From positions 1,406,001-1,470,000 of the forward strand of contig NZ_JAINVX010000001.1 in assembly GCF_019880635.1 (NCBI RefSeq): a stretch of 64,000 nt of DNA, given 5' to 3'. Shown here one piece after another: positions 48,783 to 53,457 of this stretch (positions within the stretch are counted from its first letter, which is position 1; each line of letters starts with the position of its first letter). The stretch is from Hanstruepera marina (GTDB lineage: Bacteria; Bacteroidota; Bacteroidia; Flavobacteriales; Flavobacteriaceae). Under the pieces are notes generated by a model that was not told where the DNA came from, ran no database searches, and saw only the letters and a program-made list of their open reading frames with translations. A program made the translations under genes and the position numbers.

Positions 48783-48926
48783 AATGTACGTTAATTAATA
48801 GGTTTTGTTTTATTAGTTATAACAATTTCAATATTGTTACAATTTGTTTAGCTATTTTTTTCATTTTGAAAAAAATTAGCTTGAATGGGAGTTTCAATGG
48901 CATATTTAATAACCTCAAGTATTTTT

Positions 48927-49040
48927 GCCAACGGTGGCGTTATGCGTAGTCTTGTTTTGGATTTTAAAAATAGCGAATTTATTCGGTGTTATTTAAAATA
49001 CAGAGTAAACGTAAACAAATTGCGTATAATGGCAGTTGGC
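48927..49040. repeat. Inverted-repeat element E (attC-like)
   Basis: The outer ends GCCAAC (48927) and GTTGGC (49035) are complementary. Inside, the arm 48938-48957 pairs with 49013-49031 over 19 base pairs including four G-T wobbles and one extrahelical C (48951). A long imperfect stem with a bulged base and conserved ends is the design of integron attC sites, although the core sequence differs from the classical one. Confidence 0.6.
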
Positions 49041-49127
49041 TCACGTTTTCCCTAGATGGGCAGCTGGAGCTGTTAGTAATACAATCCCCAAGATTCCCGC
49101 GCCTGGCGCAATTTGGCATAACGCTGT

Positions 49128-49211
49128 CGTTGAATCACATATCTTGTGTAATGGGATTTTGCTTGCAAAATATAGAGGCACAAGTCAGCTTTAGCTGAAT
49201 GTGATTCAACG
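49128..49211. repeat. Multi-stem inverted repeat F
   Basis: Perfect 13-base arms CGTTGAATCACAT and ATGTGATTCAACG enclose an inner CTTGTG/CACAAG stem (49143-49148 with 49179-49184), a TTTTGC/GCAAAA hairpin (49157-49170) and a TCAGC-TTTA-GCTGA hairpin (49185-49198). The whole can fold into a branched structure. Its right arm overlaps the start of element A. Confidence 0.65.
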
Positions 49212-49337
49212 GTCTTGGCTATGGTTTCGTTACGGAATGGTACGTGAGTATCATTCCGAAGTAACCATAAATTTAGCAAAAAAGCTTGAAATTCCGATTA
49301 GGAATTTCAGCCGTAATGAACTATAGCCGTTGTTGGC
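49208..49337. repeat. Cassette-boundary element A (family 1, attC-like)
   Basis: The left end AACGGTCTTG and right end GTTGTTGGC match element B. Between them, the arm 49217-49235 pairs with 49311-49328 (GGCTAT.GTT and AACTATAGCC type), with internal hairpins at 49229-49265 and TGAAATTCC/GGAATTTCA at 49287-49309. Read on the minus strand it begins one base after the stop codon of the lipoprotein gene and ends CCGTTGAAT, which contains GTTGAAT, a fit to the integron core GTTRRRY. Confidence 0.65.
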
Positions 49338-49338
49338 T

Positions 49339-49944
49339 TTAGTATTTTTTATATTCTGTTATTTTATTTCCAGATTCCGACGCTTTTGCAATAATTTTTT
49401 CCAGATTTTTTTTATCAATCAATGCAGTTACATAAGAGTCACTATCAATGTAAAGGTTGATTAAAGTCAAACCGTTTTTATTCAACGTCTCGTTTATAAT
49501 TCCGAGTAATGCTCCAGCATCTTTTTCATTCTCGTTTTGAATTTCAGGTAATTTTGGTAACGCATATTTTTTTCGTTCAGCCATTTGGTCAAGTGACCAT
49601 TTAATGTCATCCATTCTTTGTTTCCAATCAAATTCCCAAATATATTTTCCATCACTTAAGTTATCAATTAGTAAAAACCATTCAGGATTCTTTTTTATGT
49701 CCTCACTTGGTCCTCGAAAAGCTTGATTTTTAATATTTTCAGTGTCATAATAGTAACTTCCATCTTTAAAAACTGATTCGGGATTTAGTTTGAATTTCTG
49801 AAGTTTGTTAGAAAAGGATTCCAATTGCTCACTGTCATTAACCTCAATTATTAATTCAGCTAAACTTTCGGATTGGGATAAGTCCTTTGTAGATTTACAA
49901 CTGAAACAAAGTAGAACTAAAGTTAAATTCAGAAGGTTTCTCAT
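49339..49944 (-). CDS. Hypothetical lipoprotein in a possible gene cassette
   Basis: 201 residues with a signal ending LTLVLLCFSCKS and a soluble domain with no recognised motif; the C-terminal segment LINLYIDSDSYVTALIDKK recalls small DUF6630-like domains, which I hold only as a weak thought. The ATG at 49944 is chosen because the upstream in-frame extension (to 50010) runs into element B and lacks a signal peptide. The gene is bracketed by family-1 elements A (3' side, one base after the stop) and B (5' side), leaving almost no other DNA, as in an integron cassette. Confidence 0.7.
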   Translation of the reverse strand: MRNLLNLTLVLLCFSCKSTKDLSQSESLAELIIEVNDSEQLESFSNKLQKFKLNPESVFKDGSYYYDTENIKNQAFRGPSEDIKKNPEWFLLIDNLSDGKYIWEFDWKQRMDDIKWSLDQMAERKKYALPKLPEIQNENEKDAGALLGIINETLNKNGLTLINLYIDSDSYVTALIDKKNLEKIIAKASESGNKITEYKKY

Positions 49945-49972
49945 TCGGATTTGGTTTTTCAATATTAAAGCC

Positions 49973-50097
49973 AACGGTCTTGTATATGAAAAGTAGCGGG
50001 TTTTACTCACGGACTTTTCGGTTTGGTACTGACCTTAAATTTATAAAATTCATTTTCGATCAAGTACTTAAACCGCTATTTTTTATATACGTTGTTG
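49973..50097. repeat. Cassette-boundary element B (family 1, attC-like)
   Basis: It has the same ends as element A (AACGGTCTTG at 49973, GTTGTTG at 50091) but a different stem: the arm 49982-50003 pairs with 50070-50090 with two mismatches and one bulged base. An inner GTACT/AGTAC pair adds a second stem. Conserved ends with non-conserved yet self-complementary stems indicate selection for the folded shape. Confidence 0.65.
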
Positions 50098-50126
50098 TGT
50101 TTTCGTACTTTTTTCCGTTCTGTTTG

Positions 50127-50216
50127 TAGCGTTGGCAAAGACATACTCTTTTGCAATTTTTGGCTTATGTGTCGGCTTTAGCGAATTGCAAATGTGTATG
50201 GCTTTTAGCGTTGGCA
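50127..50216. repeat. Hairpin element D (family 2)
   Basis: Two direct copies of TAGCGTTGGCA (50127 and 50206) flank a hairpin whose arms CATACTCTTTTGCAATT and AATTGCAAATGTGTATG pair except for two T-T mismatches around a C-G pair. The right copy ends directly at the stop codon (50217) of the restriction enzyme gene. The CTCTTTTG/CAAATGTG core is shared with element C. Confidence 0.65.
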
Positions 50217-51524
50217 TTATTCAGTTAGATTTATTATTTCATTCTTTTTGTACAAGTTTGGTAGAAACCTTGATTTAATTCTAAACTGACTTCTTTTCTT
50301 AATTTTGGGTTTCGTTGACATATTCTCCAATTTAATTCCTGGGTCATAATAAATATTTCCATTTGCCATTTGTCCAAGAAAAAGTTGAAAATCCGTTCCA
50401 GTTCCCAAAATCACGTTGTTACCATATTTGTATTTTCTATCTCCTTTTGTGTCTGAAAGAGATGGAACATAACAAGCTTTATCGTGTTTCCTGTTCCAGT
50501 GTAAGAGCATTGATGAAAAACTCCAAGAAGCTGCTTCATTTCCTTTTTGGTCAATTAATGAAATACTTCCGTTTGAATTTCTGATTTTTCCGCTTTCTTG
50601 GTCAAAACCAATTAACTTCATTTCCAGTTTGGTCGTTGGATGTAATTCTCCCGCTTTATGAACACCTCCAAAATTCATTCGGTCAGGTCTTCCAAGTTTA
50701 TCGGGATAACCATAGGTTTTTATAAAGTATTCTGTTCCTTCAGATTTATAAAGTCCATCTGTAGGTTCTGGTGTCATTAATGTTATTACAGAAGAGTTTA
50801 TGTTTTCAAATTTTTTAACGCCAAATTGTTTGATTTCCCAACCCATAAAGTCAGGTTCAGAATATCCATTTGGTGTAACGCCAAGTTCAGCTTCAAGCGT
50901 ATAACCTCCACAATTTGATGCTCGACAAGGCAAAATATTACCATCAGAATCTAAACGTTTTGAATCTATCCAACCTTGATTATGAATTCGTACAAGTTCT
51001 TGTAATAAGATAGAGCGATTATTTGCTGTTCGTGGTAATTCTATTATTGAGAATACACCGTGTTCTCCCAAATTTTTTTCTAAAGCAAACTCCTTTGCAA
51101 TTTCAGATTCTGGATGAGCAACGTAGCCTAAAACAGTTCCACTTTTACTAACTCCAATAAACAACAATCTGTCAGCGAGTCTTTGAGTCATTAATTCTGA
51201 AGGTGCATTTTTTGAGCCTAAAAGAAACCCTGAAAATCTAACTTCTGGATATTTAGGGTAAAGAATTAATTGAGAATGCTTTGCAGGTGATAAGTTGCCT
51301 TCATCTGTTATCCAAGAAAAATTCAATGAAGCTTTAAAACGTTCTCTTCTCCAATCTCCAGCTTCAACTGTTTCTATACTTGAAATGGGAAGAACATTAA
51401 GTATTTCAAAGTTACCTCCGAAATAAACTTGGTTTTTTGAATTGTCGTTTGGTGCAAGTTTTTTTACATAGATTTCATCACAACCATTATTGATGAACAG
51501 CGACTTTAGATTTTTTAGGTTCAT
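50217..51524 (-). CDS. Type II restriction endonuclease, MvaI/BcnI family
   Basis: 435 residues. The C-terminal half carries the MvaI/BcnI signature: SNCGGYTLEAELGVTPNG then EPDFMGWEIKQF, in which Asp and the ExK pair are the metal-binding catalytic residues. MvaI and BcnI cut CCWGG and CCSGG as monomers, so a related CCNGG-type site is likely. The N-terminal 150 residues are an extra domain (FSGFLLGSKNAP region) seen in longer family members. The start overlaps the methyltransferase 3' end by 38 bases, so translation is probably coupled after methylase synthesis. Confidence 0.88.
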   Translation of the reverse strand: MNLKNLKSLFINNGCDEIYVKKLAPNDNSKNQVYFGGNFEILNVLPISSIETVEAGDWRRERFKASLNFSWITDEGNLSPAKHSQLILYPKYPEVRFSGFLLGSKNAPSELMTQRLADRLLFIGVSKSGTVLGYVAHPESEIAKEFALEKNLGEHGVFSIIELPRTANNRSILLQELVRIHNQGWIDSKRLDSDGNILPCRASNCGGYTLEAELGVTPNGYSEPDFMGWEIKQFGVKKFENINSSVITLMTPEPTDGLYKSEGTEYFIKTYGYPDKLGRPDRMNFGGVHKAGELHPTTKLEMKLIGFDQESGKIRNSNGSISLIDQKGNEAASWSFSSMLLHWNRKHDKACYVPSLSDTKGDRKYKYGNNVILGTGTDFQLFLGQMANGNIYYDPGIKLENMSTKPKIKKRSQFRIKSRFLPNLYKKNEIINLTE

Positions 51525-52728
51525 TGATTTTCAAAAGTTCTTTTACAATGTTCTTTCCAACCGCTTGTATTAATGGCATAGCTACAGAATTACCAAATTG
51601 TTTGTATGCTTGATTGTTAGAAACAGGAATAATAAATTTATCTGGGAAACCCTGAATTCTAGCACATTCTCTTGGCGTTAGTCTTCTTGGATTTTTTCCT
51701 CTTTGGGGTATTAGTATTTCAGCTCCATCTTTATAATATCTTGCACTTAAAGTACGAGAAACTCCATTTAAATCCGTCAGTCCAAAACCAAAGCCGTTTC
51801 CTTTAGCTTGATGTTTTTTCTTATATGCTTGAAGATAACTCCAAAGTTTATCAGACAAAGTATATTTTGGGTCAACTCGTCTTTGTAAAATTTCTTTAAT
51901 TGCTAATTCAGTATTTGGTGGTTCAGGAAATTCAAAAGTTTCTTTTTCTTTAAAAATGGATTTTTTAAACCCAACAATTATGATTCTTTCTCTGTGTTGA
52001 GGAACATAATATTTTGCATCTAAAACTTTATAATGAATTGAATAGCCTAATTCAGTTAATGTTTCAGTAATTACTTTAAAAGTTTTCTTTTTGTCGTGAG
52101 AAACAAGGTTTTTTACATTTTCCAACATAAAAACCTTTGGTTTTTTATGCTCAATTATTCTCGCAATATCAAAAAATAATGTTCCTTGGGTTTTGTCTAA
52201 AAATCCGTGTTGTCTACCTAAAGAATTTTTCTTTGAAACACCTGCAATTGAAAAAGGTTGGCAAGGAAAACCGCCTAATAAAATATCGTGGTCTGGAATT
52301 TCTTTTTCTGAAACTTGGGTTATGTCTCCAAAAGGAACTTCTCCAAAATTAGCTTCGTATGTTTTTTTTGCAAAAGAATCCCATTCACTTGTAAAAACGC
52401 ATTTTCCACCATTATTTTGAAACGCAAGTCGAATTCCTCCAATTCCTGCAAAAAGGTCAATGAATTTGAAAGTTGGGTTTTCTGGTGGTGGAAATGGAAC
52501 ATCCCATTTTATTGGTAAATAATATTGAAAATCTGGTTCTTGAGCTATCTCTAAATTTTCGTGTAATTCCGCTAAATATTCTTTTGCTGTTGGTCTGTAA
52601 TATTGAGAAACTCCGTTTTTGTGATTTTGAAAATAATGAGTTAAATGAGCCATTTCGTTAGTAGTTTTCTTGTCTACAACGATTTTTAATTTTTCTCTAA
52701 TGTCCGAATATTTTTTACTCATTTTCAT
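51487..52728 (-). CDS. DNA (cytosine-5)-methyltransferase of the R-M system
   Basis: 413 residues with all C5-methyltransferase motifs: I (FIDLFAGIGGIRLAF), IV with the catalytic Cys (GGFPCQPFS), VI (MLENVKNL), VIII (QHRERIIIVGF) and X (QFGNSVAMPL). The N-terminal 85 residues before motif I are as in Dcm/M.EcoRII-like enzymes, which methylate CCWGG; this agrees with an MvaI/BcnI-type nuclease partner. MvaI itself pairs with an N4 methylase, so this C5 pairing is of note. It is first in the operon and encodes the protective activity. Confidence 0.93.
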   Translation of the reverse strand: MKMSKKYSDIREKLKIVVDKKTTNEMAHLTHYFQNHKNGVSQYYRPTAKEYLAELHENLEIAQEPDFQYYLPIKWDVPFPPPENPTFKFIDLFAGIGGIRLAFQNNGGKCVFTSEWDSFAKKTYEANFGEVPFGDITQVSEKEIPDHDILLGGFPCQPFSIAGVSKKNSLGRQHGFLDKTQGTLFFDIARIIEHKKPKVFMLENVKNLVSHDKKKTFKVITETLTELGYSIHYKVLDAKYYVPQHRERIIIVGFKKSIFKEKETFEFPEPPNTELAIKEILQRRVDPKYTLSDKLWSYLQAYKKKHQAKGNGFGFGLTDLNGVSRTLSARYYKDGAEILIPQRGKNPRRLTPRECARIQGFPDKFIIPVSNNQAYKQFGNSVAMPLIQAVGKNIVKELLKINEPKKSKVAVHQ

Positions 52729-52812
52729 TTTCCAAATATGCGAAGAATATAACTTTTTTTAGGCAATTATTTGCTTGTTTTCTTAACAATTTTTTCAACG
52801 ATTATTAATTTC

Positions 52813-52900
52813 AGCGTTGGCTAAAAACAGCTCTTTTGGTTTTTTTAGCGTGGGATTTTTGGTGTTGGGAAAAACCAAATGTGCTGTTGGTGCGGCTGGC
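52813..52900. repeat. Hairpin element C (family 2)
   Basis: It starts AGCGTTGGC as element D does. The arms 52826-52844 and 52870-52888 pair over 19 positions, with the same two T-T mismatches in the CTCTTTTG/CAAATGTG core, but the rest of the stem is quite different from D and still self-complementary. It lies 85 bases upstream of the methyltransferase start, so C and D bracket the R-M operon. Confidence 0.65.
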
Positions 52901-53109
52901 TTTCAGTATGAAACACAACGTGTTATATAAACACAAATATAGCCGTTTAACCGGTTTCTGATCCGGATATGAACACTTTTTGTCTCCATTAACAGTTCAG
53001 TTTTTATACATAATTGATAATTTAAAACCAAAACTTATGCTTGTATTAGCCAAAACAATAAAGATCATCTATAAACTAAATCTTAGGTTTCCTTATTACT
53101 GCCTTATAG

Positions 53110-53142
53110 CTTAAGTATGGCTTAAGTATGGCTAGTGTATGC
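53110..53142. repeat. 11-bp tandem repeat, set 1
   Basis: CTTAAGTATGG twice in tandem, then the degenerate CTAGTGTATGC: three units of 11 bases. Confidence 0.7.
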
Positions 53143-53182
53143 AAAGGGCATATAAACAAAAACTATCTAATTTGGTAACTAC

Positions 53183-53215: not shown

Positions 53216-53270
53216 TAATAGGGCTAAATCATCAAAACCCACATTTTATTACACGCAAAAACCCCTAATA

Positions 53271-53325
53271 GCTCCTTAAGGTCTGCGTCAGGTCTACTTA
53301 AGGTCTCCTTAAGGTTTCCTTCAGG
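53271..53325. repeat. 11-bp tandem repeat, set 2
   Basis: Five consecutive 11-base units with consensus TCTCCTTAAGG (variants GCTCCTTAAGG, TCTGCGTCAGG, TCTACTTAAGG, TTTCCTTCAGG). The helical-turn period puts each unit on the same DNA face. It ends 132 bases before the NYN-LOTUS start codon. Confidence 0.75.
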
Positions 53326-53457
53326 TCAACCCGTGAAAATTCCTACAAGTTAGTGATGCTAAAGTAGTACCTTGCCCAAATCATATGCTGCAAAAACAAA
53401 TGGTTTAATTACAGTTCATTAACTTTACCAAAACCAACACACTAAAAAACACCCTTT

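Follow-up and report, generated by a model that had tools for sequence, protein, structure and literature searches.

An integron-like gene cassette array in Hanstruepera marina with attC-like sites and a probable XerA-like recombinase

A classical integron has an integrase gene, an adjacent attI site and an array of genes with folded sites, in which paired boxes stand beside an unpaired spacer; the start of each cassette is complementary to the R'' of its own site. The recognition mark of the integrase, IntI, is an additional domain, as stated in passages of a report on archaeal integrons (PMC9668308) and of PMC2426708. According to a passage of PMC8138268, the insertion is not fully conserved in an integron-like subgroup, so that any difference from IntI in this respect is softened, not removed. 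For Bacteroidetes, the passages concerned in IntegronFinder 2.0 (PMC9024848) give In0 elements earlier and one Salinibacter integron, and parts of PMC8618304 and PMC2426708 place the phylum or a group of it among the integron carriers. No integron system of the kind described here appears for Flavobacteriaceae among the literature matches listed, a search whose scope excluded preprints and most subscription papers.

The window analysed here is a stretch of 64,000 nucleotides of the Hanstruepera marina genome. A first-pass annotation had described a lone cassette, one lipoprotein gene bracketed by two attC-like elements, A and B. Both elements lie where it put them, with common ends and with arms that differ in sequence and are self-complementary in each copy. 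The gene does lie between them, and it is one of three cassettes instead of a single one. Together with a third element and an attI-like site, they form an array of about 4 kb on the minus strand, which starts from the solo attI-like site and is read as the two restriction-modification genes, then B, the DUF6630 gene, A, an ORF-less stretch and a long site:

52917-52941, minus strand: attI2-like site, exact match to TATATTT-N6-ATATAAC-NN-GTT, no integrase adjoining
49976-52919, minus strand: cassette 1, two-gene restriction-modification cassette ending in attC-like site B; barcode, 6 of 7 bases
51487-52728, minus strand: C-5 cytosine DNA methyltransferase gene (PF00145, E 6.7e-104)
50217-51524, minus strand: MvaI/BcnI-family restriction endonuclease gene (PF15515, E 3.4e-48)
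49973-50096 (cores AAC/GTT), minus strand: attC-like site B, 114.1 bits with model R1, B being among the R1 training sites
49211-49975, minus strand: cassette 2, DUF6630 gene and attC-like site A; barcode
49339-49944, minus strand: DUF6630 gene (PF20335, E 6.4e-27) with a lipoprotein-like N-terminus, the signal judged by eye
49208-49334 (cores AAC/GTT), minus strand: attC-like site A, 118.5 bits with model R1, A being among the R1 training sites
48933-49210, minus strand: cassette 3, ORF-less; barcode
48930-49131, minus strand: long attC-like site of cassette 3, about 200 nt, the last site found, unmatched by R1

In the 64 kb window the type-2 attI pattern has a single occurrence, and in 100 shuffles it has none. 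Site B is shared out, its R'' belonging to cassette 1 and its R' tail to cassette 2. All three cassettes obey a rule that we call the barcode: the bases with which a cassette opens after GTT can pair with the R'' of its own attC, not with that of its neighbour. Cassette 1 starts with GTTGTGTTTCATA, and the reverse complement of its own R'' is GTTGTGTTTTCGT (6 of 7 bases alike); the corresponding pairs are GTTGGCTTTAATA and GTTGGCTTTAGTA for cassette 2, and GTTGAATCACATT and GTTGAATCACATA for cassette 3. Beyond cassette 3 no further R'' with at most one mismatch was found within 6 kb. Stretches 85-88% similar to cassette 3 lie at C5:8795, C5:567604 and C9:3703 of the same genome. The array resembles a CALIN, that is, a cluster of attC sites without integrase as described in part of PMC9024848, in having no integrase nearby; unlike a CALIN it has sites of another family and a solo attI-like site.

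Are these elements a family of structured sites? On the gene strand, A and B run from CAAC through a spacer, an inner box with a TATA core and a long stem back to CCGTT, and a similar element lies at C5:2439. Eleven sites, namely A, B and nine from the locus L010 of the same genome, were aligned, and a structure of 20 pairs was written by hand from this alignment. In it 94.5% of 219 cells pair and 13 of the 20 pairs are changed on both sides, a value reached by none of 500 shuffles; shifting the partners by 1-3 columns destroyed the signal. The covariance model R1, built from the 11 sites and giving rough E-values, finds 43 sites at E <= 0.01 in the own genome and 268 matches in 47 sources. 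It supersedes an initial simple palindrome scan, whose matches were as many as in shuffles. Its background was gauged within Bacteroidota, on IntI neighbourhoods and on the upstream flanks of integrases. Among 150 matches aligned to R1, and hence biased towards the structure, 90.4% of cells pair and 15 of 20 pairs covary, the observed value of one measure, further pair types, being reached by 41 of 500 shuffles. As in classical integrons, the site structure is kept while the sequence varies. The fit of element A to the integron core GTTRRRY, on which the first-pass annotation had drawn, is a coincidence: of 251 R' cores, 12 agree with that consensus, and the sites follow GTT-R-N6-A instead. 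At position +8 after GTT all 248 sites have A, and the opposing R'' base is C in 89%. This conserved A.C mismatch could be a polarity mark.

The barcode was then counted in two sets of loci. In the first, 6 of 268 matches were dropped (five cut by contig ends, and L079), and 14 of the remaining 262 had no clear core at one end. A complementarity of at least 6 nt was found in 186 of 217 neighbouring pairs, as against 6 of 248 comparisons within one element and 1.2% of random pairs. For the loci fetched later, where 3 of 183 matches were dropped (L174 twice and one overlapping minus-strand match in L166) and 7 of the remaining 180 had no clear core, the figures are 127 of 160, 4 of 173 and 1.9%; a first run had given 84% of 215 pairs. 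The failures thus number 31 of 217 and 33 of 160. Of the 34 failures in the first run, 24 extend over at least 1200 bp, as would be expected if intervening sites were missed. In 327 barcode-verified cassettes the longest ORF is on the strand of the site in 284 and on the other strand in 13, and 30 have no ORF of 50 aa. As a rule, then, cassettes hold one gene and a 3' folded site on one strand, and some hold two or more genes. We regard the barcode rule as the decisive indication, read from sequence, of a cassette organisation.

Where do the cassettes end? A barcode-only caller, which has no shuffle background, called 377 cassettes in 65 loci. Of the 36 like cassette pairs listed, 31 have little likeness in the upstream flanks (22-60%) and five have much (80-100%); movement in blocks, or descent, thus accounts for some copies. 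Two of the five belong to a duplicated block in L141 and one is between two Winogradskyella. Ten pairs, none of them from these five, were picked by hand for a comparison base by base, and nine were compared, one being without an end. In the six closest pairs (94-100%) the likeness runs up to C|GTT and then breaks off. Upstream of that point stands another attC or attI, common to the two only in the site consensus, and in L042 the start of the neighbouring cassette is alike again past the barcode. These six pairs place the crossover at the GTT of R', resolved to GTT and not to a single phosphate. The three weaker pairs (81-86%) differ in the attC itself, and the site may therefore have been exchanged independently of the gene. 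Aligned in this way, near-identical cassettes are found in different genera and classes: one of 1262 bp is 97.2% alike between G175, of the same family, where it is first after attI, and G242, of another class, where it is internal. Others are 96.0% alike over 968 bp and 94.4% over about 735 bp, and exact duplicates of 2380, 555 and 436 bp occur within single arrays. As to the excision points for which the first-pass annotation had looked, no strains turned up that differ in the presence of the window segment; the shared cassettes do end cleanly at C|GTT.

In the nearest species, other cassettes occupy the place of the window array. In Hanstruepera flava (G487, whose integrase place is that of L061) gene 53458, which flanks the array, is syntenic at 92%; next to it stand other minus-strand genes of 279, 188 and 172 aa with, by eye, shorter palindromes between them. 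The only match of the cassette region there is 48920-49369 at 80%, which covers the ORF-less cassette and part of A.

Which enzyme might serve these sites? That no integrase is visible holds for the surroundings of the array; elsewhere in the genome there are two XerA-like integrases, each with an attI-like site past its stop codon and an array behind. One is at L010, in the first 10 kb of contig C5, where genes follow one another almost without exception on the minus strand, with elements between most of them and some neighbours lying within one cassette, and the row ends at a tyrosine recombinase of 375 aa (C5:11027-12154). The second (C9:11855-13072) is 37% identical to it, and its attI, TATATTT...ATATAACnnGTT, is followed by a cassette that obeys the rule. 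Integrases of type 1 have after the stop codon an inverted repeat and then GTT[GA], with close relatives alike up to GTT and different beyond; when 56 distinct type-1 integrases were examined with a strict 6-nt rule, 50 had past the stop an inverted repeat ending at most 9 nt before GTTR. In most type-2 integrases seen, a TATATTT-type attI directly follows the stop. Of seven proteins that score in the range of type 2, five have ATATARCnnGTT, and one of the other two is an archaeal XerA relative; by eye the motif is also present at 11 of 13 further type-2 loci (not L168 and L170). In several attI sites there is a TATATTTG motif, which resembles the Bacteroidota -7 element and may hint at a cassette promoter Pc. 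The first cassette after attI shows the barcode in 61 of 71 loci, a count that includes duplicate fetches and has no shuffle control.

The position of sites relative to genes is not random. In 24 named loci, with 239 kb of sequence upstream and 105 kb downstream of the integrases, 65 sites are downstream on the integrase strand, none on the other strand, and three upstream. A downstream site is present in 16 of the 24; of the other eight, five have less than 200 nt there and three have 1.1-3.1 kb, and R1 finds no site in the 1.8 and 3.1 kb downstream of the integrases of L080 and L082. The attI adjoins the integrase gene as in classical integrons. Unlike in these, the attI of types 1 and 2 is directly past the integrase stop, and in loci with sites both types are co-oriented with the cassettes instead of divergent from them. 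Divergence is not universal among known integrons either, as passages of PMC3607928 indicate: in the Treponema integrons treated there the integrase is likewise read towards attI, in the cassette direction, and those integrons have intI. Types 1 and 2 of the present system, by contrast, resemble XerA and are extended at the N-terminus by about 100 residues. At two loci of another class the integrase, type 3, is divergent from the array; the ORFs, of 319 and 282 aa, are too short for the N-terminal part. Such an integrase without N-terminal part, divergent from an array of the same site family, was seen in L159-L161.

By its profile scores the integrase P0001 is an XerA-like protein: it scores 242.3 bits with NF040815 (recomb_XerA_Arch), above the cut-off of 220, and this model is described as 'site-specific tyrosine recombinase/integron integrase'. 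With the IntI model TIGR02249 it gets 198.3 bits in two stretches, below the cut-off of 265. It is far below the cut-offs of XerC (203.9 of 335) and XerD (206.9 of 330), and so outside the dimer-resolution enzymes. The integrases here share the catalytic domain with XerA, XerC and XerD and differ from them in being linked to cassette arrays. The IntI insert of about 31 aa and a second one of about 11 aa are absent in the aligned proteins (three of type 1, two of type 2, two of type 3), and the IntI insert is present in the eight IntI shown in the same alignment. The catalytic residues are kept in the aligned proteins of types 1-3. L082 was left out of A3 for stops in its translation. In a tree of 50 proteins, IntI (11 rows, support 100/99), type 1 (15, 100/99) and type 2 (18, 99/95) are each one group, and the integrases stand apart from two other Xer-like genes of the genome. 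Types 1-3 are separated from IntI, together with the archaeal protein and L178, at a support of only 84/86, and a grouping of IntI with types 1 and 2 without type 3 is not rejected by the data (p 0.139). The system works like an integron, and its integrases fall outside IntI.

The sites are widespread. With one genome per genus, R1 sites at 1e-6 are present in 175 of 199 Flavobacteriaceae genomes, a count with at most 16 candidates scored per genome and rough E-values. Relatives of P0001 at E <= 1e-80 are present in 36 of the 199, and relatives of P0002 at 1e-50, all types together, in 106. Sites are thus found in more genomes than a detected integrase (175 against 106), and G485, of the same genus, has sites and no detected integrase. 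In 296 sampled genomes of the phylum, 81 have R1 sites at 1e-6. True IntI, frequent in other classes, is present in 84, not one of them marked as of the same family or as the own genome. Since 19 of the 81 also have IntI, outside the family a weak match to R1 could stand for a different type of site. The array of G068 extends for at least 60 kb behind its integrase.

Taken as a whole, the best explanation, to which we give a probability of roughly 0.93, is that A and B are attC-like sites of an integron-like system served by an XerA-like recombinase. Cassette units, boundaries, stem covariation, attI position and co-orientation can all be read from the sequence; the suggestion of the first-pass annotation that this is an undescribed Bacteroidota cassette system is supported, for the stems covary, the sites are ordered relative to genes and the cassette ends are clean. 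In the scenario that we infer, an XerA-like tyrosine recombinase coded elsewhere in the genome would move cassettes one at a time, cutting them out and inserting them by crossing over at C|GTT; a cassette is usually a gene with one folded site. In the excised circle the cassette start, GTT-R-N6-A, would lie beside the inner part of the site and pair with R'', which would make the hairpin complete. The attC would be read as a single folded strand, with a choice between the strands, because its structure is kept while much of the sequence varies. The entry point of new cassettes would be the attI-like site that immediately follows the integrase gene. The array in the window, three cassettes after a solo attI2-like site, would be a satellite, presumably loaded by a type-2 integrase.

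Could it be a classical integron whose IntI was lost or missed and whose attC sites degenerated? The overall plan is the same: integrase, adjoining attI, arrays of genes with folded sites, paired outer and inner boxes with an unpaired spacer, and cassette starts complementary to their own R''. True IntI also occurs in the phylum, R1 matches are found in 19 of those 84 genomes, and the model that P0001 passes bears 'integron integrase' in its own description. Against this, none of the 84 genomes is of this family, the arrays adjoin a different recombinase family without the IntI insert, the cores follow GTT-R-N6-A in place of GTTRRRY, and the outer complementarity is longer (about 10 bp) before the conserved A.C mismatch. 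Moreover, R1 finds no site in five of six true-IntI neighbourhoods of 20 kb and two weak ones, of 43.1 and 32.8 bits, in the sixth. We therefore hold this reading to be very improbable. Even less probable is that the elements are REP- or MITE-like palindromes, spread by a transposase and located between genes by chance. There are indeed many palindromic copies, some of them solitary in the genome; however, the barcode ties a site to the far arm of the next site across a whole gene, which transposition of repeats does not yield, and the arrays are on one strand adjoining a recombinase, with whole cassettes shared with exact ends. The same small chance is given to structured RNA elements, terminators or stabilisers of the 3' UTR. 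The elements fold and are close behind stop codons, and a side role as terminator is possible; but an RNA has no explanation for the barcode rule and the exact boundaries, and a search of the array against Rfam came up empty at E up to 1. In the whole window Rfam gives two weak matches to eukaryotic miRNA models, far below gathering scores.

If the integron-like system is accepted, is it a second lineage of integrons? We lean to this view with some reserve, the lineage being apart from IntI by origin or by branching before the insert. On the same view there would be a shared cassette pool in most Flavobacteriaceae and in other classes of Bacteroidota, with at least three recombinase types and one site family. 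If the system is confirmed, cassette capture would be possible without the IntI insert and may have several origins or an older one than has been assumed; software that relies on IntI would overlook a large pool of cassettes. The need for the insert in folded single-strand recombination would become testable. The system may also explain breaks in assemblies, several contigs ending at or just behind these integrases: contigs C5, C8 and C9 and those of L062, L067, L068, L072 and L077 end inside arrays or within 200 nt of an integrase. Assemblies thus probably underrate the length of arrays.

Some minor observations should be noticed. Single attC-like sites are scattered in the own genome (L110-L117), four of eight with a changed GTT core. 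An array segment at 6761-9105 of L106, on contig C9, has two genes that by eye resemble C-5 methyltransferases and may be another restriction-modification cargo of this genome. In the window, a different inverted repeat (50128-50216), with arms of 22 nt that are 86% complementary and GCGTTGGC on both sides, sits between the endonuclease stop codon and site B. Short intergenic repeats lie at 53265-53348 and 53105-53163, with several copies in genomes of the same genus, those of the former being 84-93% alike. Near the start of cassette 1 there is a hairpin with AAAACCAAA...GCTGTT arms (52826-52888), which is found again near the start of an unrelated cassette in L083, after its attI, and is a leader common to some cassettes.
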